Virus record (IMG/VR): IMGVR_UViG_3300033981_000714
Location: 1 to 23,208 of that record
Source of the DNA: a virus
Reading direction: 5' to 3' (one strand)
Length of the DNA stretch: 23,208 nt
The first letter of the stretch is position 1. Each line of letters begins with the position of its first letter. The notes under the pieces are model-generated. The model was not told the origin of the DNA, did no database searches, and was given only the letters and a program-made list of their open reading frames with translations. Both the position numbers and the translations under genes were made by a program. Shown piece by piece: positions 400-23,156 of this stretch.

Positions 400-879
400 T
401 TAATTGTGAAAGAAAATGTCGCAAGGTATTTCGTGCAAGGTAGGCTGATTTTCGTTCAATTCCAACTCAATCAATACCATACGCAAATGCTCTGCAAGTT
501 GAAGACATTTGCTATAATACTCCTTGTCCCCGATTTTTGTATTGTTTACAAATTTTATGCTGTGGCTAACGCTGGCATGGTCGCAGTTAAGCAAAGCCCC
601 AATTTTCTCCATTTTCATTCCAGTAACAGCCCTGAGAGCAAACCGAAAAGCGTGTTTACAATTTATTTGTTCTGTAAACCTTCGCTTTGTAAGTGCGGTT
701 TCAATCGGCACTCCCCAGTATGCGGCCATTTCCCTTAGTACGGTTTCTTCGTATCCGGGCTTGATGGGATATTTTACATTAGCCACAATTCTTTTAGATA
801 AAATTCGGTCAATGTATGCCTTGACTTCTAATAAATTAACGTCCTTGCGGTTTAAATAGCGTTTAAAATGTCGTGTCAT
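400..879 (-). CDS. DnaA domain IV-like DNA-binding protein
   Basis: 159 residues without an AAA+ ATPase domain. Residues about 65-112 resemble the DNA-binding domain IV of DnaA: a basic FTEQINCKHAFRFALRAVTG helix pair, then MKMEKIGALLN and CDHASVSHSIKFV, matching the DnaA signature of a helix ending in IG followed by DH-(S/T/A)-x-V-x-H. In DnaA this element reads the DnaA box. A free-standing copy could recognise the phage origin, recruit or compete with host DnaA, or regulate transcription. It overlaps the exonuclease gene by 4 bases (ATGA), suggesting translational coupling. A second DnaA-IV-like gene lies at 13643-14002 on the other strand. The fold assignment is fairly confident; the function is inferred. 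Confidence 0.75.
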   Translation of the reverse strand: MTRHFKRYLNRKDVNLLEVKAYIDRILSKRIVANVKYPIKPGYEETVLREMAAYWGVPIETALTKRRFTEQINCKHAFRFALRAVTGMKMEKIGALLNCDHASVSHSIKFVNNTKIGDKEYYSKCLQLAEHLRMVLIELELNENQPTLHEIPCDIFFHN

Positions 880-7725: not shown

Positions 7726-9513
7726 TTAAATTAAAGATGGTGGCGGGGGCGATGTAAATTGGTTGGCAATTGTTGAAGATATGCCAATCACAATCGCCCG
7801 TTGTTCTGCGGTTGAAAGGTTGTCGAAGTTTTCGTTTTCTTCGTAGGCCTGATTCAGTATTGTTACAAAAGAACTGTGTAAAATGACCTCGGCCTCAGTT
7901 GCGGTGCTGCCAAGCATAGTCCTTACTGTGATGTCATCTTTTGACCAAAGGCGGTCAAGTTTAATTTGCAGCTTTATCATTTGCTCAACCTTCGGCGATG
8001 CGTTGAAGCGTGTGCCCACGTATTGGTAAAGCAGCGAAGCTAATGCCGAATCTGGCATCGATTGTTCTTTGGCCGTTCCGATTTCGCTTGTGATGTCCTC
8101 GTAAGTTCTAAAGTTGAACGAAGTGGGTACTTGAATGCTGGGCTTTTCAAATGCGTTGCCGTACCTCATGTGGCCAATTGCCTCAATGCTCATGTCCATA
8201 AGGGCAAAAAGTTCCCGGGCAAACTGCACCATGAATGTTTGCCATTCTTCCTTTTCAATTTGCTTGCCCGTGGCGGTTGCTGAATTTGCTTGCTCAGGTT
8301 CAAAGAACATACCAAAGGCCGAACGTCTGCGGCTTTCGATTTGCTCGCTGGTGTATTTTAGAATTTCGCTTGGCGGTGCTGCGAATTGAACAGGCGGGGA
8401 CATGGCCAAGGTATTTGCTTCGCCCATTCGGGTTGTGGCAGCTACCTCATAAATGCCCGTTGGGGAATGGTTCAGGTTCTTGCCTGAGCCGTTACATTTG
8501 CCGCACGTGGTGTACTTGCCTTGGTCTGCAGTCCATACTTGGCCACCTTCGCAGCCAGCGGCATCGCATCTATCGACAACGGCAATAATAATTGGGAACG
8601 CCAACCGGTACGTTGACATCATTAGGTTGCTTTCCAACCGTACAACGGTGTTCAAATGCGGGATTGCATCGCAAAACGATGAACGATAGAACACCTCATT
8701 ATCGTGCATGGCGGGTTTTCCACCAAGTTTCCAAGCGGGTAGGTAACCGTATGCATGCCTAAAGGTTTCAACTACCTCAAAGGTCAGGTTGCCTTTGTCA
8801 TCTTTGCCGTTTACAAATGCCTCGAAAATGCCTTGCTTGTCGATGTATTTAAAGGTCATTTTGTCGCTGTCCTTGCCGTTCCAAATCAGGGCGTACTCGT
8901 TTGCCCTGTAACCCGCAACGTATTTTTCATCGTAAATTTTGGCAATTGGGGCAATCAGTTCCGACTGGTCAACAATATCGTATTCCTCGCCATCTTCCCC
9001 TGTAACCGTTTTCATGGGCATGTAGTCAGGGCATACTACAAGCAATTGGTTCGGGTAGTTTATTTTGCGTTCCCGAACGATGTCGAAAAAGAACGCCTCG
9101 ATAGAATAGTATTCAGGGTAAAGGCCGTAAAAATACTCCTTCTGCTCAGGGTTCGGCCATTCAATAGAATAGTTTTGGCTGTTGGCAACCGCCTTGGTTC
9201 GGTTCAGGGCCCGATTCCATTCGGTGTTGGTTGTCGGTTCGTATAGCCCTTTTTGGTATTCCCATTCCTCGGCCTGTTGGTTCGGTGCTTTTGACCGAAG
9301 TATTTCGTAGGGGAACTGGTCGGCCTCAGCGTGAACTGCCACCGCATTATGCTCCCGAATGGTTTCGGCGTATATTTCGTTGAAGTCGGGCAGGCCATCG
9401 TAGTAGCTTTCCGTTTGGAATTTCTTGTCGTACTTACTGGGCATGCCAACAACATTCCGTTTTTTGCGGATTGCCTTTGCGGCGTGGTCAATTAGGCTAT
9501 AAATGTCTGCCAT
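7726..9513 (-). CDS. Probable portal protein with a zinc-binding insertion
   Basis: 595 residues, within the usual range for portals. The middle contains DAIPHLNTVVRLESNLMMS followed by a hydrophobic strand, and a C-terminal helical region with ATATGKQIEKEEWQTF and a long amphipathic helix (FARELFALMDMSIEAIGHM), resembling portal stem/wing segments where E-A-T-A precedes the helical domain. It lies upstream of scaffold and capsid genes. At residues about 316-340 there are four cysteines (CDAAGC, then CGKCNGSGK, a DnaJ-type CxxCxGxG knuckle) that probably bind zinc. I infer portal from position, length and secondary structure; the terminase that would confirm it is not in the window. Confidence 0.6.
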   Translation of the reverse strand: MADIYSLIDHAAKAIRKKRNVVGMPSKYDKKFQTESYYDGLPDFNEIYAETIREHNAVAVHAEADQFPYEILRSKAPNQQAEEWEYQKGLYEPTTNTEWNRALNRTKAVANSQNYSIEWPNPEQKEYFYGLYPEYYSIEAFFFDIVRERKINYPNQLLVVCPDYMPMKTVTGEDGEEYDIVDQSELIAPIAKIYDEKYVAGYRANEYALIWNGKDSDKMTFKYIDKQGIFEAFVNGKDDKGNLTFEVVETFRHAYGYLPAWKLGGKPAMHDNEVFYRSSFCDAIPHLNTVVRLESNLMMSTYRLAFPIIIAVVDRCDAAGCEGGQVWTADQGKYTTCGKCNGSGKNLNHSPTGIYEVAATTRMGEANTLAMSPPVQFAAPPSEILKYTSEQIESRRRSAFGMFFEPEQANSATATGKQIEKEEWQTFMVQFARELFALMDMSIEAIGHMRYGNAFEKPSIQVPTSFNFRTYEDITSEIGTAKEQSMPDSALASLLYQYVGTRFNASPKVEQMIKLQIKLDRLWSKDDITVRTMLGSTATEAEVILHSSFVTILNQAYEENENFDNLSTAEQRAIVIGISSTIANQFTSPPPPSLI

Positions 9514-9531: not shown

Positions 9532-9563
9532 CAAAAATACGCAAACTATTCTATGTGTTTCAA
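9532..9563 (-). promoter_or_regulatory. Promoter of the portal-scaffold unit
   Basis: On the minus strand TTG (9563-9561) is followed by 21 bases and TATTTTTG (9539-9532), an exact TAnnTTTG box with correct spacing, 18 bases before the portal ATG. The -33 element lies inside the 3' end of the upstream glycosyltransferase gene. It lacks the tandem operator motif of promoters A-C. Confidence 0.65.
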
Positions 9564-11303
9564 CATTTCGTTTAGCGGCAACCGAATGACCGCATCGGTG
9601 CAATCGTGATGCCCCGCCAAAATTAGGCAATTGCCCTTTTTGTCAATCTCCAAATGACTTGGAAAAGTTACCAAATCCAGCATCGGATTGAGCCAAGTAT
9701 GGGGCGTTTCGGGTATGTCCTTATTGTTCACAAAGGTCGCTTTCCAAAGCGGTGTTCTGCTCCAGCGTAGTGCCCTGAACGGTGGCTTTGCCTCCAACTC
9801 CATTAAACCTGCCCAGTATAAATTGATAGCGTTAACCCTCTGCCTCACGTGAAAGATGGTGTACAACTTGCTACCATGCTCAACTAATTGCGTGCCGCCC
9901 CTAATATGCCCCCGTGCCAAGGTAGGTGTTTCGGTTTTGTATTCGGCAATCGGTTCGCCAAGGTTATACTCAACCACATGGCCCGGGGCATACAGCACGT
10001 GAAGCCGCCCTTCGTAAACAAACGGCGACCAGTTCTTTTCTCGGCCATCGTGGTCTTTTGGTTTACTTGCTGGGGGTTTCATCTGCCAACATTCTTGCGT
10101 GTCGATGTAACCAAAGTACATTTTGTGTCCATCGTTAAACACCAACGCTGGCCGCCCGTTAAATTCAAAACCCCGTGGGTCTTCAGCATGCCCATTCTCG
10201 GTAACAAAGGGAATAATGCGGCCGTTTGTTGGCTTGCCCTCGTTCCAATCCCAAACCGCTATTTTCCTATCCCTAAACCAAGGGAACTTGTCCAACCGTG
10301 TAGCGTATAAGTTGCCAACCAATGTACCGTTGAATGCGTTTGTAAAAGGTTTGATTGCTGCAGAATGGTAGGGTATAAGTTCAAGTTCGGGTTGCAGCTT
10401 TGCCTCAATCGCATCGAAATGAATCTTGCGAACATCGGGCTTTTCAACATTGCGAACTGGCTTGCTTACCGCAAACTTGGCTTTCATTAAATGGTGGGCC
10501 TTAGCGGCTGTTACGCTGCCATACATTTGCTTTTCAATATAGGCAACAACCCTATCGTAAAGGTCATAGGTTTTTCGTGCATCGGTGCTATATTGCCCGT
10601 AGCAACCCACGAAGTAGTGGTTGCGTTTCAGTTCGGTAAAGTCGGGCGTCTTGGCCTTGAATTGTACGGGTGCGATGCCAAGGTCAGGGTTTACGTTTGC
10701 TTGGCAAAGGGCCACATTAAAAGCCAATTCATCGGGGAATGAATGCCCCCAATGCTTCGTGGCTAAATGCTCTTTGTAGTTCGCCTTGGCGTTTGCCCAA
10801 ACCTCTGCGGCTTTGGGTGTATTTTTCCAGTACAGGATTGATGAATTGATTTCGGGCAGCACTCCCGTTTCAGGCAGTTCAAATTCTTTGCGAACTTTGT
10901 CCAGCGTCAGCCAAAGGCAAGGCCATGAATCGTTAGTTAGGTCGGTTTGCGAAACCACTTGCGTAGCAAAATCAAAACCAAGGCAACGCTCCCATAGGGT
11001 GTTGAGTTCTTGTACAGCCACGCCATCGCAATCAATGTACATCGTTTCATCGAATGGGGTGTATTTATCAAGGTGTAGTTTAAACTTGCCCGGTGCAATC
11101 CGCCCAGTCGCATCGTTCAAATCTGCGGGGTCAATCTGCACAGCATGGGCAACGTGCTTGCGTTCCCGTTCGGGCAGAAGGTTAATATCCCCTACAATCG
11201 CAATCGGTATTTCAGGGCTAAAATGGGCAAGGGAATTGACCATGTTTTTCGCCCATTGGCCGTAGCTTGAATTCCCTGATAAAAAAAGTAGGTAACCTTT
11301 CAT
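9546..11303 (-). CDS. Glycosyltransferase fused to a GH130/GH43-like beta-propeller
   Basis: 585 residues from the ATG at 11303 (MKGYLLFLSG); an earlier reading would need a TTG start inside the promoter. Residues 1-260 look like a GT-A/GT8-type glycosyltransferase: strand IPIAIVGD, then FDETMYIDCDGVAVQ with the metal-binding D91-C-D93, and a later INSSILYW segment. Residues about 300-585 resemble a five-bladed propeller of GH130/GH43 type: AEDPRGFEF, KNWSPFVYEGRLHVLYA, HIRGGTQLVEHGSKLYTIFH and LILAGHHDCTDAVIRLPL are successive blade motifs with the E-D-P-R and R-G-G-T signatures of GH130 mannoside phosphorylases. Both parts should handle nucleotide-sugars or glycans. Substrate unknown; virion decoration or host-surface modification are possibilities. 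Confidence 0.7.
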   Translation of the reverse strand: MKGYLLFLSGNSSYGQWAKNMVNSLAHFSPEIPIAIVGDINLLPERERKHVAHAVQIDPADLNDATGRIAPGKFKLHLDKYTPFDETMYIDCDGVAVQELNTLWERCLGFDFATQVVSQTDLTNDSWPCLWLTLDKVRKEFELPETGVLPEINSSILYWKNTPKAAEVWANAKANYKEHLATKHWGHSFPDELAFNVALCQANVNPDLGIAPVQFKAKTPDFTELKRNHYFVGCYGQYSTDARKTYDLYDRVVAYIEKQMYGSVTAAKAHHLMKAKFAVSKPVRNVEKPDVRKIHFDAIEAKLQPELELIPYHSAAIKPFTNAFNGTLVGNLYATRLDKFPWFRDRKIAVWDWNEGKPTNGRIIPFVTENGHAEDPRGFEFNGRPALVFNDGHKMYFGYIDTQECWQMKPPASKPKDHDGREKNWSPFVYEGRLHVLYAPGHVVEYNLGEPIAEYKTETPTLARGHIRGGTQLVEHGSKLYTIFHVRQRVNAINLYWAGLMELEAKPPFRALRWSRTPLWKATFVNNKDIPETPHTWLNPMLDLVTFPSHLEIDKKGNCLILAGHHDCTDAVIRLPLNEMLKHIE

Positions 11304-11318
11304 AAGTTGTTTGCTATT

Positions 11319-11350
11319 CAAAGGTAATAACAAAAAACAAAAAGCCCCAA
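11319..11350 (-). promoter_or_regulatory. Promoter of the glycosyltransferase-propeller gene
   Basis: Minus strand TTG (11350-11348), 21 bases, TACCTTTG (11326-11319), 15 bases before the ATG. The same box, TACCTTTG, appears at 13580-13587 and 17745-17752. The -33 element lies within the terminator hairpin of the preceding cassette operon. Confidence 0.6.
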
Positions 11351-13028: not shown

Positions 13029-13559
13029 TTATTCAAATACGCCAACAGGGGCGTTGTATAGAACGGGGAATTCATTGGGTGCAGACTGCCAGCCGAAGGT
13101 AACCATGTATTGCTGCACATCGTTTTCATCAGCCTTGGCTGGTTTTGCGATGCAACGTACTGGCTGCTCAACAACTCGGATTTCATCTTCCTCGTAGTAG
13201 AACCAAGCCAATTTGTACTTGCCAATGGTGTTCAGCGTTTCGTAGAACGTATCGTTGCTGCTGTCCACGTTCGCATCCATTACCGATAAGGTATGGTTGA
13301 ACTTGGTTAGGATGTCAGGCGTGCCTCGGCGTGGGTTGGTAATGGTTACCTCTTCCGCTTCGGGATAGTTCGCCTTGATTTCCTTGATGATTGCTACATC
13401 GCCAGCGGCAATAGCGGCAGTCCACTCGGCAGCATCGGTGTAGTCCAAAAAGGTGTAGTCATTGTCAATAACGGCCACGGCAGAAATGCCCGTTAACCGA
13501 TTGATTTCGCAGACGTTTTCGCTGTAAACAGGCAAATTGTCAAAACAAGAATAGCTCAT
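13029..13559 (-). CDS. Probable virion protein, possibly the tail tube
   Basis: 176 residues, acidic and beta-rich, with no clear family motif. It has its own -7 box and a strong terminator, so it is transcribed as a single, probably abundant, message. Mid-size single-gene structural units of this kind in siphoviruses are often the major tail (tube) protein or a head decoration protein, and segments such as FNHTLSVMDANVDSSNDTFY and YMVTFGWQSAPNEFPV fit a beta-sandwich. No other tail-tube candidate is in the window. The neighbouring plus-strand pair separates it from the tail genes. The role is inferred from context only. Confidence 0.45.
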   Translation of the reverse strand: MSYSCFDNLPVYSENVCEINRLTGISAVAVIDNDYTFLDYTDAAEWTAAIAAGDVAIIKEIKANYPEAEEVTITNPRRGTPDILTKFNHTLSVMDANVDSSNDTFYETLNTIGKYKLAWFYYEEDEIRVVEQPVRCIAKPAKADENDVQQYMVTFGWQSAPNEFPVLYNAPVGVFE

Positions 13560-13642: not shown

Positions 13643-14002
13643 ATGAACGTGGCACAACTTTCATTGGCCGAACTTTTCGACCTTAAATTTGCGGTAAATA
13701 GCGAACTGAATCGCCGCATTTCGCTGGCAGCCGATGACTTTCTTTGGTCGCTTTGTGCATACTACGGGGTTGATTACGCCGCATTTCGGGCCGCAACAAG
13801 GCGGCAGTATTCCGACATTAAGCGAATTGCGTCTTATTATTTCGTGGCCATGAAAGGGTTGTCAAGCGGCGAAGCAGCAGAACTTATCGGCATCAATCGG
13901 GTAACTGTTGGCCAGCACGTTCAACGGGTTTTGTTTTTCAAAAAGAACGTGCCCGGTAAATGGTTTAAAATTTACAACATAATTCAATCTACAACAAAAT
14001 GA
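13643..14002 (+). CDS. DnaA domain IV-like HTH protein
   Basis: 119 residues. Residues about 53-95 (ATRRQYSDIKRIASYYFVAM, KGLSSGEAAELIGINRVTV, GQHVQRV) follow the DnaA domain IV or TrpR-like pattern: basic helix, KGLS turn, helix ending in IG, recognition helix and H-x-x-(R/K)-V. The DH-S/T signature of true DnaA is replaced by NRVT, so sequence specificity has probably changed. It is shorter than the related gene at 400-879. It overlaps the next gene by 4 bases (ATGA), so both are translated together, and it may regulate that small unit or another phage promoter. Confidence 0.7.
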   Translation: MNVAQLSLAELFDLKFAVNSELNRRISLAADDFLWSLCAYYGVDYAAFRAATRRQYSDIKRIASYYFVAMKGLSSGEAAELIGINRVTVGQHVQRVLFFKKNVPGKWFKIYNIIQSTTK

Positions 14003-17754: not shown

Positions 17755-19899
17755 TTATTCGGGTTCTTCTATGCTGTTCAGGTTTTCAAACTCAGGCGGC
17801 ACTTGGTCAACCAATCGGCCAGCCAGTTGTGCTTCGGTTTGCCCTGATAGCAAATTGCGTGTCATGTCAAGAATGTACATATTTCGCCCCTCGCCCGCAT
17901 CGTTGACCTGATACTTTAATTGGCTGAACGGCGATGCCGCTATTTGCTGCCAAGTCGGTAGAGGCAAGTTACCTGACCATTCGTTTTTTAGTAGGTAGTT
18001 GTTGCCGTCTTCAACCTGAACGGCATCGCCGCCGTCCACGTTGGTAAATCTTAATGTAAAGTGGCTGCTTTCGTAAATAAACAATTGACTTGGAGGAGGT
18101 GCAACATAATCAATGGTTAAAAATATCTTATCGTTTGCATTTAATAAAATAGGGATTGTAAAAACCTCCATTTTTATTTTCTTAACCAAGAAAGGAATGG
18201 GGGGAATAGTTAAAAAATCGTTTTGGTTGTCGGAAAACTGAGCCAAAATATTGCCAGTAGTATAGCTTGAATCGGTTCGCCAAAGGTTTAAATTAACAAC
18301 GTAAAATGACGGCCCAATAACAATCCCCAAGTTTGTTTTTGTAATTAAATCAAGAATCCCATAAAAAACATAATATCCAGTTACTGGAATTGTATATTCA
18401 TACGTGATGTTGTTGTAGTTGCTTCCTCCGTCAAACGCTGGGGCAACCGAATCGTTATTCCATTGGCAATAAAACTGACTTGAAGGCACAATACCTGTTC
18501 CAAATGTTCCTGTACTTGTTCCGTTCCAGTTTATTCCGGGAGAGCCTTTTGATGCAATTAATTCAAGTAAATCAAATTCAAATGGGGTGTTGGCTAATAA
18601 TGGTTGTTGAACATACGGCCCTGATGAATTGGCATAAAAGCCAGTTGTAAAAAGGTTTAGGTACTGCTTAAAAATCGTGGCGGGCAACCCTGTAAAGTTG
18701 TTTATCAATACATTTTGGTTGCTGATGTCGCCGTTTAAATAGTATTCCCCGCTAAAATACAACGTGCCTTTTTCGTCCCAGTCAATGCCGTTGTGCTTTC
18801 GGCATATCACGTAAAACACCTCGTTGTCTTTGCTGCTATCGGGGTTGGCCAACCCTTGCTGCGTTTGAGTGTAGTAAATTAAATTAGTATCTGTAATCAA
18901 TGCCTGCATACGCAAGTCAAGTTCTTTATCCACGTTGCTGCGGTAACTCATCGAAAACTGCTCCTCGAAGGTTGAAAGAAAAGGTGTAAATGCAAAATAC
19001 CCGTCAAGGTCTTCATCTTTGCTGCCAAGTCGAACGCACGAATATAACGTGTCGCTGTTTATCATTTCCTTTACAGGCGTAGCTACGTGCTTGGTGTCTA
19101 TTACACCTGATTGCCGTATGTCATCAAACCTTTCAACACGAAGGCGAAGGTTACCTACGGAATCCCTTTCAATGTACTGAACCAAATTGTATAGCTTGGC
19201 AAGGTCGCTGTATAGGTACTCAAATGAAATGTTAGGGCCGTATTGTTTTACGCCGTCCCGTAACGCCTCGCCGCTAAATAGGTAGCCTTGATTAAGCACG
19301 CCTTGAACTGGGTCTAAATACTCCTGTAAAGCATCGGAATAAAAGCCAATTTGGTTGTCGGTCATGGCCGCTACAAGGAATTTCATAGCCTCATATCTGC
19401 TCCAGCCTGTTACCCTGTTTGGAAAGTAAACAAGCGGCGGCGTTGGTAGGTTGTTCAATACCTGAATTTGTGTTGAACTGGCAACCCCTGTGATGTTTGT
19501 GCCGTTCTTCGACCGCCCTGAACCAATAATAAATTCAATGCTTTTGTTGTTTTCAATCTTGGCAAAGAACGAATTGTCCACAAGTTGAATCTCAACCGTT
19601 TGGGCGTACAGGTCGAAGGTGCAATCGGTAACGAATACAAGGCCATGCAATACGGTTTCCCAAACGCCAGCGTACTCATCATACCTTGATAGGGTGCAAG
19701 GTACTTGGGTGTCATAATCGGTACGCAATAGGTTTTGAAAGTAGCGGAACCCTTGGCCGCCCAATAGTACCGTACCCGTTATTTCTTGAAGGAATGCCTT
19801 GCGTTCAATGTCGTACCAAATATGCTCCGACAAATCGTTCAGGTCGCTTATCGTGTCGGGCGTGTAGTCAGTCCCGTTTATGAATAATCTTGCTGTCAT
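17755..19899 (-). CDS. Tail hub/distal tail protein with a jelly-roll-like insert
   Basis: 714 residues. The N-terminal 420 (MTARLFINGTDYTPDTISDL, VEIQLVDNSFFAKIENNKSI, SRYEAMKFLVAAMTDNQIGF) resemble phage tail hub/baseplate proteins of gp27-like type, with later LRVERFDD strands. Residues about 430-616 (plus-strand 18050-18610) are a Tyr/Asn-rich domain with ITYEYTIPVTGYYVFYGILD and LLNANDKIFLTIDYV, the pattern of a C1q/TNF-like jelly roll; this stretch is markedly AT-rich compared with both flanks. The remaining C-terminus returns to core composition (GDAVQVEDGNNYLLKNEW). It overlaps the tape measure gene by 4 bases. The insert is a likely receptor-binding module acquired by recombination. 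Confidence 0.65.
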   Translation of the reverse strand: MTARLFINGTDYTPDTISDLNDLSEHIWYDIERKAFLQEITGTVLLGGQGFRYFQNLLRTDYDTQVPCTLSRYDEYAGVWETVLHGLVFVTDCTFDLYAQTVEIQLVDNSFFAKIENNKSIEFIIGSGRSKNGTNITGVASSTQIQVLNNLPTPPLVYFPNRVTGWSRYEAMKFLVAAMTDNQIGFYSDALQEYLDPVQGVLNQGYLFSGEALRDGVKQYGPNISFEYLYSDLAKLYNLVQYIERDSVGNLRLRVERFDDIRQSGVIDTKHVATPVKEMINSDTLYSCVRLGSKDEDLDGYFAFTPFLSTFEEQFSMSYRSNVDKELDLRMQALITDTNLIYYTQTQQGLANPDSSKDNEVFYVICRKHNGIDWDEKGTLYFSGEYYLNGDISNQNVLINNFTGLPATIFKQYLNLFTTGFYANSSGPYVQQPLLANTPFEFDLLELIASKGSPGINWNGTSTGTFGTGIVPSSQFYCQWNNDSVAPAFDGGSNYNNITYEYTIPVTGYYVFYGILDLITKTNLGIVIGPSFYVVNLNLWRTDSSYTTGNILAQFSDNQNDFLTIPPIPFLVKKIKMEVFTIPILLNANDKIFLTIDYVAPPPSQLFIYESSHFTLRFTNVDGGDAVQVEDGNNYLLKNEWSGNLPLPTWQQIAASPFSQLKYQVNDAGEGRNMYILDMTRNLLSGQTEAQLAGRLVDQVPPEFENLNSIEEPE

Positions 19900-22800
19900 G
19901 CTCCCCTAAGTTTTTTGCGTGTTTGTTTCATGGTTTGGAATCCGTCCCGTAGCACGGCGGTTTGTTCTTTGGTTGCCCTGAAAAGGCGGTAGTCATCGAA
20001 GTTGCTGGACATTTGCAAGGCCATTGAATTCGCCAAGCGGTCGGCAAAATCTTCCTCAGCTTGCCGCTGTTGTTCCATCAAGGCGGGCCGCACAAAGTTT
20101 TTGTTAATGTACCCATCAAGGCTGCCATCAATCCACGATTTGGCAAGGCCCGGGTATTGTAGGTTCTTCCCGGTTGGTATAATCGCTTCCCCTTCGTGTG
20201 CCATTACGGGAATGGTGTCCTTGCCTTTGGGGTTGCCGCCCAACTGCAAATAAGGCGTACCTTCAAAGAACTTGTACGGGTTGGGCTGTGCTGCAATGAT
20301 ACCGATTTGAAGTGCCCCAAATGCACCAGCGACAGCGGCGGCGGCGGCGGCAACGCCGGGCCCGATTAAAGGTATGGCGGCGGTTGCGGCAAATGCGTTC
20401 AATGCCGCTTGTGCTGCCGACATGGTGGCGTTAATAATTTGACTGGCTCTGCCTACCTCAAACTGCTCGGCTAAGATTGCGTTCTTTTTTGCCTCGTATT
20501 CTTCCTCGATGCGTAGCCGTTCCTCAGCGGTTAGGTTTTCATTGGCCAGCCTTTGATTCTTTTCCTTTTCAAGATTGTTTAATTGAAGGTCAAAGTAACC
20601 GTTCAATGCGTCCATTGCTGGCCCAAGTACCGAATTAACCGCACCAAATACCTTGCCCATTTCGGATTCGATTTCCCCTACTTTTTTAAGGGCATCTTGC
20701 TTTGCCTTTTCTTGAATTGTTAAAATTACTGGAAGTTCAATCCCTTCTTCATCGGTAAATGTGCCAAGGTCTGCTGATGATGCAATCAGCCCAAACTCCT
20801 TGGCAAGTTTGTCCGCATAATCAAACGATAAATCACTTGCCCTGTCCAATGCTTCAAGGTCTTCATCGCCCACAATGCCGCCCCTTACTTCTTCTAATTT
20901 GTTTTTGAATATCGCAAGTTGGTTTTCAAGTTTTGAAATCGCCTTTTGATATTCACTTGCCTTTTCAATATTGCCAGCGAATGTAGCGTTTTCTTGTGCA
21001 GTTTTAAGTTTGCCAAGTTCTTCGTTTAGCTTTTCAAGGGCCGTCTTGGCCTTTTCTTTTTCTTTGGTGTTATTGTCGCTTGCCGCTGCACTTTCGTTCT
21101 CAACGACAGTATTTGATGCCACAGCAACATTTACTTCTTTTGAAGTTTCTGCAATACTCTTTTGAACATTTGCCAATTTCTCTCCAGCCTCTGCACTTTT
21201 GGCTTGCGATTCGGCATACTGCTGAATCATATTTGAAACATCACCAAAGTTTCTTGATGTTTGCTTTACATTTACGCCTAATGCCTTTGCGGTTTCAAAA
21301 AACTTGCTAACCGAATTATCAAAAAACCCTGTATTAACCTCTCCTGCCTTTACCCTTTTAGCAAACTCATCAAGAAGTTTAGCATTGATTCCCATGCCAC
21401 TTTGAAGAAGTTTGTCCCTCGATTCAATAGATTTGGTTTCTTCTTCAAGTTGTATCTCTGCCGCTTTTTGTGCAATTGCCTCTGCGGCCCTTAGTTTTAT
21501 CCTTGCTGCAAAAGATTTGTTTGCTTCATTTAAAGCCGTTTGTAGTTGACCATTAAATTTTGTTTCATCCTTCAGGTCTTTAATTGCAACTGGCGAAAGT
21601 TCGTTAAATCTTTTTAGGTATTTGGCTCGTTCTTCGCTTTCGGGGTTTGTGTTTCTTAATGCCTCGGCAAGCAAATTAAGTTCAGCCTGTTCTTTTCGCA
21701 AACCTTCTACTGCCGAACTTGCAACCGCATCAAATTCTTTTTGCGATTCAGTTACCCCATTCATCATATCCAACAAATCAGGGCCGTAGGCAACCAATGT
21801 TGCTACCGCAGACGCAATCAATCCAAATGGGTTTGATTTTATTGCAGCATTCAATCCCTTTACTCCACCTGTAACGCCTTTTAGTATGCCTGTCAGGCCA
21901 CCCATGTCTTTTGCCAATGCGGCAACCTTCATAGCACCAAAACCTGAAGCGACAATGAACAGCAACTTGCCCAAATTCTTAATGGTATCGGCATCAACAC
22001 CATCTGTAAAACTCCTCAACCCCTCGGCAGCACCCAATAACGCTGGCATCAATGCATTGCCAATGGTAATCTTAACGTCCTCAAACGCATTCTGCATCAA
22101 CTGAAACTGTGCATCTGCGGTTTGGGCTTGCTTTTCAAACGCCAAGTTAACCGCATTCGACCCCGTGGTCATGTCGGCCAAGGTGGCTGTATAAGATTCG
22201 TTTACCGTGCCGCCAAGGGCAAGGATAGCCGATGCGGTTTCAACGCTGCCAGTAACCTGTGCAACGGTCATGCCCGATGCCTCGGCTTCCTCTTTGATTA
22301 ACTTGAACGCATTACCAAGGCCGCCCGATGTTTTGATTAAGTCAATGCCGTCTTTAGCCCCCAGTTGTTTGAATATATTCGACAACTCCTTGCCGGGCTT
22401 CTGCATTTCAGTTAACGCCTGTTTAAGCTGCGTTTGTGCGGCGGCGGCTGGGGTTCCCAATGTAGTGATGGCGGCGGTTGATGCTTGCAAGTCGGCAAGT
22501 GAAACCCCAGCGGCGGCGGCGGCTGGTGCAACCCCACCGAATTGTGCGGTAAGTTCGGCCAATGTGGTTTTGCCCGCCTTTACGGTTTTGAATAAAATGT
22601 CGCTTATCTGCTCGGCACTCAACCCCTCAGCGGCAAATGCGTTCACGGCCGATGTCATTATGTTTGCAGCCTCGGCAGTTGTAGCCAAGCCAGCAACACC
22701 CAACTGGGCAGAACTTTCAAGAACGGCCATAGCGTCCTCGGCACTTACACCCGCAGAACGCACATCGTACAAGGCAGATGACAATTGCCCCAACTCAACA

Positions 22801-23156
22801 GGGGTTTTCTTTGCCAAGTCCCTGACCGATGCCCCCATCGAATCCATGCTTTCCACGTTGGTATCAACCAAGGTGGCAATGTTGCTCATTGATTTGTCAA
22901 ATGCGGCAGCGGCGTTTACTGCCTCGCGGCCAAATGAAACCAACTGTTGAACAGCAAATGCCGCAGCAATCGTTTTGCCAAGGTCTTGCAACGTGGCCTT
23001 TAAGCCGTTTGCACCTTTGCCTACATCATCAATTTTGTCATCGGCTTTCTTGGCATCGGCTTCAACCGCCTTGAGCCTACCTTTTAGGTCGTCTAATTCC
23101 TTTTTGAGTTTTGTGGTTTCCGCCTGAAACTCCACTATTATTTTGTCGATGGCCAT
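19896..23156 (-). CDS. Tail tape measure protein (TP901 type)
   Basis: 1086 residues. An N-terminal coiled coil (VEFQAETTKLKKELDDLKGR) is followed by the TP901-type core, about residues 75-370 (FDKSMSNIATLVDTNVESMD, DVRSAGVSAEDAMAVLESSA, GTPAAAAQTQLKQALTEMQ, PALLGAAEGLRSF), and then hydrophobic helices. A more AT-rich coiled-coil segment (about residues 490-840) precedes a conserved C-terminal GTPYLQLGGNPKGKDTIPVM AHEGE region common in tape measure proteins. It sets tail length during assembly and is ejected with DNA. At about 0.15 nm per residue a tail near 160 nm is predicted. The downstream hub gene overlaps by 4 bases. No C-terminal lytic domain is seen. Confidence 0.92.
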   Translation of the reverse strand: MAIDKIIVEFQAETTKLKKELDDLKGRLKAVEADAKKADDKIDDVGKGANGLKATLQDLGKTIAAAFAVQQLVSFGREAVNAAAAFDKSMSNIATLVDTNVESMDSMGASVRDLAKKTPVELGQLSSALYDVRSAGVSAEDAMAVLESSAQLGVAGLATTAEAANIMTSAVNAFAAEGLSAEQISDILFKTVKAGKTTLAELTAQFGGVAPAAAAAGVSLADLQASTAAITTLGTPAAAAQTQLKQALTEMQKPGKELSNIFKQLGAKDGIDLIKTSGGLGNAFKLIKEEAEASGMTVAQVTGSVETASAILALGGTVNESYTATLADMTTGSNAVNLAFEKQAQTADAQFQLMQNAFEDVKITIGNALMPALLGAAEGLRSFTDGVDADTIKNLGKLLFIVASGFGAMKVAALAKDMGGLTGILKGVTGGVKGLNAAIKSNPFGLIASAVATLVAYGPDLLDMMNGVTESQKEFDAVASSAVEGLRKEQAELNLLAEALRNTNPESEERAKYLKRFNELSPVAIKDLKDETKFNGQLQTALNEANKSFAARIKLRAAEAIAQKAAEIQLEEETKSIESRDKLLQSGMGINAKLLDEFAKRVKAGEVNTGFFDNSVSKFFETAKALGVNVKQTSRNFGDVSNMIQQYAESQAKSAEAGEKLANVQKSIAETSKEVNVAVASNTVVENESAAASDNNTKEKEKAKTALEKLNEELGKLKTAQENATFAGNIEKASEYQKAISKLENQLAIFKNKLEEVRGGIVGDEDLEALDRASDLSFDYADKLAKEFGLIASSADLGTFTDEEGIELPVILTIQEKAKQDALKKVGEIESEMGKVFGAVNSVLGPAMDALNGYFDLQLNNLEKEKNQRLANENLTAEERLRIEEEYEAKKNAILAEQFEVGRASQIINATMSAAQAALNAFAATAAIPLIGPGVAAAAAAVAGAFGALQIGIIAAQPNPYKFFEGTPYLQLGGNPKGKDTIPVMAHEGEAIIPTGKNLQYPGLAKSWIDGSLDGYINKNFVRPALMEQQRQAEEDFADRLANSMALQMSSNFDDYRLFRATKEQTAVLRDGFQTMKQTRKKLRGA

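Follow-up and report, generated by a model that had tools for sequence, protein, structure and literature searches.

Propellers of the GH130 type are known mainly as mannoside degraders. Hydrolases of this family require two carboxylates, and phosphorylases a proton donor together with phosphate-binding residues (PMC8950772). In the enzyme BT3780, mutants of D142, E141, K199, and D363 lose activity, and N74 contributes (PMC4599007). GT108 has its fold and mechanism in common with GH130 and includes transferases (PMC8476585, PMC8950772) as well as dual transferase/phosphorylases (PMC8950772); its GH130-fold propeller can work as a GDP-Man transferase (PMC8476585; PDB titles). Mycobacteriophages glycosylate their own capsid and tail proteins with phage-encoded glycosyltransferases (Che8 gp110, Corndog gp38; PMC12363180).

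Here, we analyzed a virus record of 23,208 bases (IMGVR_UViG_3300033981_000714), referred to as the window, with emphasis on one gene, P0001. A first-pass annotation had described its product as a 585-residue phage protein with DxD, EDPR, KNW, and RGGT motifs, all of which were found in the open reading frame (D91-x-D93, E374-D-P-R377, K423-N-W425, and R468-G-G-T471; Table 1). Our best explanation for the whole, to which we assign a probability of roughly 0.45, is that P0001 is a phage glycan-building enzyme with two catalytic-type modules per chain.

Gene and Neighborhood

The start codon of P0001 is an ATG at 11303, with a TTG at 11333 as possible alternative, and stop codons interrupt the plus strand over the coordinates of the gene. 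P0001 is located inside the head module of a tailed phage, which also holds a Mu F-like head protein and a holin. The sole detectable relative of the portal protein among phage records belonged to Flavobacterium phage tant8-1 (E 3e-4), and it is on this account that a Bacteroidota host is weakly hinted at. Elsewhere in the window, two small proteins (13643-14002, plus strand, and 400-879, minus strand) contain a helix-turn-helix stretch resembling DnaA domain IV by eye.

Table 1. Positions of P0001, its domains and motifs, and further genes in the window
Feature	Position	Strand	Description	Basis
P0001	9546..11303	-	585 aa, two domains: GT8-like (probable) and GH130-clan propeller (predicted)	Open reading frame and translation
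N-terminal probable GT8-like GT-A domain	10440..11303	-	Residues 1-288; DxD D91/D93, NSS 153-155, PDE 190-192	Model confidence low
C-terminal predicted five-bladed GH130/GT108-clan propeller	9549..10406	-	Residues 300-585	Profile and structure
EDPR motif	10173..10184	-	Residues 374-377; D375 is the proposed GH130 catalytic Asp (D142 of BT3780; PMC4599007)
KNWSPF motif	10020..10037	-	Residues 423-428; K423 aligned with Lys of beta-1,2-mannoside GH130 enzymes
RGGT motif	9891..9902	-	Residues 468-471	Alignment
Portal protein gene	7726..9513	-	phrog_7376; follows P0001 directly in transcription order; used as anchor for synteny
P0002	13999..15126	+	GT8-like domain and methyltransferase; second glycan-type gene nearby
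Tape-measure protein	19896-23156		In the window

Conservation of the Two-Domain Architecture

Relatives of P0001 were present in 17 IMG/VR contigs with 75–100% identity, in 16 of these at full length. A divergent phage (two contigs, loci L139–L142) encodes the complete two-domain architecture, which aligns with P0001 almost end to end at 30% identity (E 4e-55). On the strength of these relatives, the motifs of P0001 are judged to exceed chance and the two-domain fusion to be real and conserved. Neither the phage and plasmid records searched nor a profile search of genome contigs with alignment A2 returned a relative of P0001. A match to LucasX (H1) was judged on reading to be due to chance.

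In 11 comparison loci, the P0001 homologue directly precedes the portal gene. The distant locus L141 has the same head-gene order, but a P0002-like GT8 gene lies between the homologue and the portal gene. Head-gene synteny was seen wherever the contig of a relative extends far enough, even at 30% identity. A group of phages thus has the fusion among its core genes, placed in the head module as neighbor of the portal gene. A counterpart of P0002 was found near the P0001 homologue in most relatives; the match was limited to the GT8 part in L006, L008, and L013, and none was found in L010.

Both halves of P0001 gave dN/dS values of 0.08–0.19 (Nei-Gojobori), which are rough because synonymous sites are near saturation in most pairs. 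These values indicate that each of the two domains is maintained by purifying selection.

Two further observations were made on the relatives. In L005 (8001-9755), the glycosyltransferase half is 92% and the propeller half 80% identical to P0001, and EDPR is changed to EDPC; recombination at the domain boundary is possible. A 176-aa protein encoded at 13029-13559 (minus strand) of the window is 97–100% identical across relatives and 60% identical in L141, compared to mostly 62–85% for neighboring genes, and thus appears unusually conserved.

Homology and Fold of the C-Terminal Domain

P0001 alone had no match in Pfam even at E 10 (PF04041 included), no match in NCBIfam, and nothing firm in the PDB. 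As Pfam gave no match, relatives were collected for a profile. A DNA pattern for EKNWxPF returned 80 loci in viral contigs among the matches listed, approximately 50 of which encode a propeller-type open reading frame by motif and reading. A second DNA pattern (YYMGAYTF) led to five chlamydial contigs, and BLAST from P0001 reached L092 at 1e-20 and the chlamydial locus L034 at 3e-9. The family profile (A4) comprised 32 of the collected relatives. Its matches in the PDB were GH130 entries from rank 1 to 18 (best 1.2e-17), followed by GH32/GH43 at 0.04–0.4. The Pfam model of GH130 (PF04041) matches 13 of the 32 family members, and the Pfam model BMT (fungal beta-mannosyltransferases) weakly matches two. 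P0001 itself fails the curated Pfam cut-off for GH130 proper; the divergent two-domain relative L139 was matched by a GH130 sequence profile with E 7.4e-6. A GH130 consensus served as a probe for listing PDB entries only, and the results rest on the entries found.

An AF2 model was generated from 46 aligned rows, after an earlier input of 17 near-identical sequences had given a poor model. For residues 300–585, pLDDT was mostly 80–96, except around 523–543. The first 36 Foldseek matches of the propeller model were GH130 or GT108 entries or a Leishmania protein of the same type. By VIA-align, the best match was Uhgb_MP (Z 25.6, rmsd 2.9 Å over 260 residues); Z values were 20.6–25.6 for GH130, 19.7–20.3 for GT108 (20.3 for MPT-2, a GDP-Man transferase), and at most 18.6 for GH43/GH62. 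Profile and model together indicate that residues ~300–585 form a five-bladed propeller of the GH130/GT108 clan. The ranking by Foldseek and VIA-align implies that the predicted fold is one that all of the GH43/62/130 group have in common, GH130 being the closest.

The first-pass annotation had proposed a five-bladed propeller and named beforehand the fold of this region as the point on which the proposal would be decided; no other fold emerged, as the model has high confidence in this region and GH130 entries head its PDB matches. The wording "GH130/GH43-like" was kept for GH130, which both profile and structure favor, and narrowed to GH130/GT108, since GH43 scored lower. Membership in GH43 was rejected on these Z values.

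Active-Site Residues and the Question of Trimming

In an alignment with five GH130 structures, N325, R336, E374, D375, R377, K423, H485, Y496, and D567 match GH130. Within the 46 aligned rows, D375, K423, N424, W425, P427, F428, and Y496 do not vary. Besides D375, the remaining residues of the -1 subsite are nearly invariant, and R377 of EDPR is variable (C in L005). Whether the GH130 catalytic acid is retained had been listed as a point to check, and the proposed catalytic Asp was found as D375. By this alignment, D375, E374, and D567 would be the counterparts of D142, E141, and D363 of BT3780. K423 aligns with a Lys common to beta-1,2 enzymes, where the beta-1,4 enzyme 1VKD has Arg, and is by elimination probably the specificity residue K199 of BT3780.

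Each of the five GH130 sequences compared has the Arg of the HR motif; P0001 has A439 in its place, and almost the entire KNW family lacks this Arg. The His is retained. P0001 also lacks the basic residue that precedes IG/VG. We take both of these basic residues to be phosphate ligands of GH130 phosphorylases, and P0001 does not have the basic phosphate-binding residues of that class. H485 and A439 occupy the positions deduced, from the alignment with the five GH130 structures, for the two Glu of a BT3780-type hydrolase. Judged by its residues, P0001 appears to match neither the hydrolase nor the phosphorylase pattern clearly.

These findings bear on the earlier suggestion that the pairing might both make and trim a glycan. 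The propeller would then act as a GH130-type phosphorylase or hydrolase, and P0001 would make and edit a mannoside. GH130 homology, the proposed catalytic Asp, and the kept residues H485 and K423 are in line with such an activity, as are the dual transferase/phosphorylases of GT108 (PMC8950772) and the exported look of chlamydial members. The family is, however, associated with biosynthetic genes, and the substitution by A439, the missing basic residue before IG/VG, and a His (H485) at a position deduced for a hydrolase Glu (PMC4599007) disfavor the suggestion. With the HR Arg missing and the hydrolase pattern not seen, trimming seems quite improbable, and less likely than a synthetic or a binding role. 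Since neither pattern fits clearly and the GT108 fold can use GDP-Man, transfer is preferred as the putative activity of the propeller.

The N-Terminal Domain

The N-terminal profile had its best PDB match with the GT8 enzyme Gat1 (E 7e-4 over 52 residues). By hhalign, D91-x-D93, N153-S-S155, and P190-D-E192 align with WaaJ in the same order, at low probability and with thin profiles; no comparable alignment arose with a GT2 control. No match was obtained for this domain in Pfam, the GT8 model included, and pLDDT was below 50 across most of it. Together, this is moderate evidence that the N-terminal half is probably a GT8-like GT-A domain. The DxD glycosyltransferase domain of the first-pass annotation is supported by the ordered GT8-like motifs and the Gat1 match, and remains only probable in view of the poor model and the lack of a Pfam match.

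The KNW Clade and Its Genomic Setting

A tree of the propellers joins P0001 to L139 and L143 (SH-aLRT 93) in a clade on a long branch of 2.0 changes per site, and the KNW family is a clade of its own, separate from the five GH130 sequences compared. The tree places the P0001 propeller in an unnamed "KNW" clade of viruses and Chlamydiae. Fusions to GT2 belong to a second subclade, and GT2-TPR-propeller fusions occur in viral contigs and Parachlamydiaceae (L031, L072, L073, L087, L098, and L114). The closest neighbor of L139 is L143, a propeller that stands alone and whose gene lies in a phage cluster alongside those for NeuB, a cytidylyltransferase, GT8, GT2, an MptE-like protein, and a methyltransferase. 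A GT2 domain was found in 12 of 34 propeller-bearing contigs and in 2 of 29 control contigs, with five of the 12 carrying it in the fusion itself and with contig sizes that differ; these counts weakly support an association of the propeller with other glycosyltransferases. Predicted structures from pithoviruses, Indivirus, and Satyrvirus match the propeller model, and some are annotated with glycan enzymes. The claim that the pairing is unusual for a phage virion-gene region therefore held in part: its position next to the portal gene is conserved in relatives, and KNWxPF propellers are common among the viral loci listed.

Chlamydial standalone members start with signal-peptide-like stretches (by eye), which suit export better, so not every KNW member need be a nucleotide-sugar transferase. 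Other arrangements were also observed. Viral propeller proteins with a C-terminal extension are encoded in L091, L112, and L055 (methyltransferase-like by eye in L091 and L112), and L095 (540-1469, minus strand) holds a 951-aa viral open reading frame whose KNW-type propeller is flanked by an unassigned N-terminal region and, by eye, a GT2-like stretch at the C-terminus.

The repeated fusion to unrelated glycosyltransferase types (GT8-like and GT2) would also be expected if the propeller were a non-catalytic module that binds sugar or positions the acceptor for the GT8-like domain, and the loss of the phosphorylase HR Arg and the variability of R377 point the same way. A lectin would not need the proposed catalytic Asp, however, which is invariant along with nearly invariant -1 subsite residues, and standalone propellers exist; we regard an accessory role as unlikely. 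A glycan-building enzyme with two catalytic-type modules remains our preferred reading.

Proposed Function

According to this preferred reading, the GT8-like domain would use its DxD motif for the metal-dependent transfer of one sugar from a nucleotide-sugar donor. The propeller would add a second, probably manno-configured sugar in an inverting, transferase-type reaction like that of the GDP-mannose-dependent GT108, with no degradation of mannosides. The most likely target, and the weakest step of the proposal, would be a protein of the virion, modified where it is made in the infected cell, or failing that a glycan of the host surface.

The reading draws on the GH130 match by profile and structure, the kept residues, the loss of the HR Arg, dN/dS, synteny, the GT2 fusions, and the gene cluster of L143. 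Set against it are the missing Pfam and NCBIfam matches of P0001 alone, the long branch, the poor glycosyltransferase model and weak GT8 matches, the variable R377, and the signal-like starts of chlamydial members.

Phage enzymes that remodel O-antigen are a precedent for another target, the surface glycans of the infected host instead of the virion, with receptor masking or superinfection exclusion as possible effects. This target is compatible with any reading of the propeller. The second glycosyltransferase-methyltransferase gene nearby (P0002) would suit such a role, and the GT8 references WaaJ and WaaO, LPS enzymes of E. coli, build surface glycan. Yet no flippase-like membrane gene typical of O-antigen conversion cassettes was noticed by eye among the open reading frames of the window. 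All relatives also have the gene within the head module, next to that for the portal protein, and mycobacteriophages glycosylate their own capsids and tails (PMC12363180). We regard the host surface as a somewhat unlikely target. The location in the head module and the mycobacteriophage precedent lead us to favor the virion, although location alone cannot separate the two.

Fusions of KNW-clade propellers to glycosyltransferases are found repeatedly, in phages, in Chlamydiae, and perhaps in giant viruses. A kept catalytic Asp (as proposed), a lost phosphorylase Arg, and these fusions suggest that glycan building is widespread among proteins of this fold, which would aid the annotation of phage glycan-modification genes. 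In its furthest form, the KNW clade would be a large group of glycosyltransferases with a five-bladed propeller, corresponding in prokaryotes and viruses to GT108. P0001 would be a two-active-site enzyme that attaches two sugars in succession to a structural protein of the phage; we consider this combination somewhat unlikely.

Comparison With Known Systems

With members of GH130 (PF04041), which include beta-mannoside phosphorylases and mannosidases as well as Uhgb_MS, a mannoside synthase, P0001 shares the predicted five-bladed propeller, the EDPR catalytic Asp, and the equivalents of N325, R336, K423, H485, Y496, and D567, at the Z values given above. It differs in its fusion to a glycosyltransferase-type domain, the missing phosphorylase HR Arg, KNWxPF, a similarity below Pfam model detection, and a family clade separate from the five GH130 sequences compared. 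The Leishmania GT108 mannosyltransferase/phosphorylases (MPT-1, MPT-2, and MPT-4) have the same fold as predicted for the P0001 propeller; they are single-domain and eukaryotic, and none was among the A4 sequence matches listed. The likeness is one of fold only. GT8 enzymes (WaaJ, WaaO, glycogenin, and the Skp1 galactosyltransferase Gat1) have DxD, N-S-[SG], and PD[QE] in the same order as P0001, whose similarity is weak and not recognized by the Pfam model. In the GT2-TPR-propeller fusions, a KNW-type propeller is likewise C-terminal to a glycosyltransferase, but GT2 and TPR-like repeats (by eye) replace the GT8-like domain, and the subclade is different. Che8 gp110 and Corndog gp38 are phage-encoded glycosyltransferases for capsid or tail proteins, with no propeller described, and are likened to P0001 by its proposed function.
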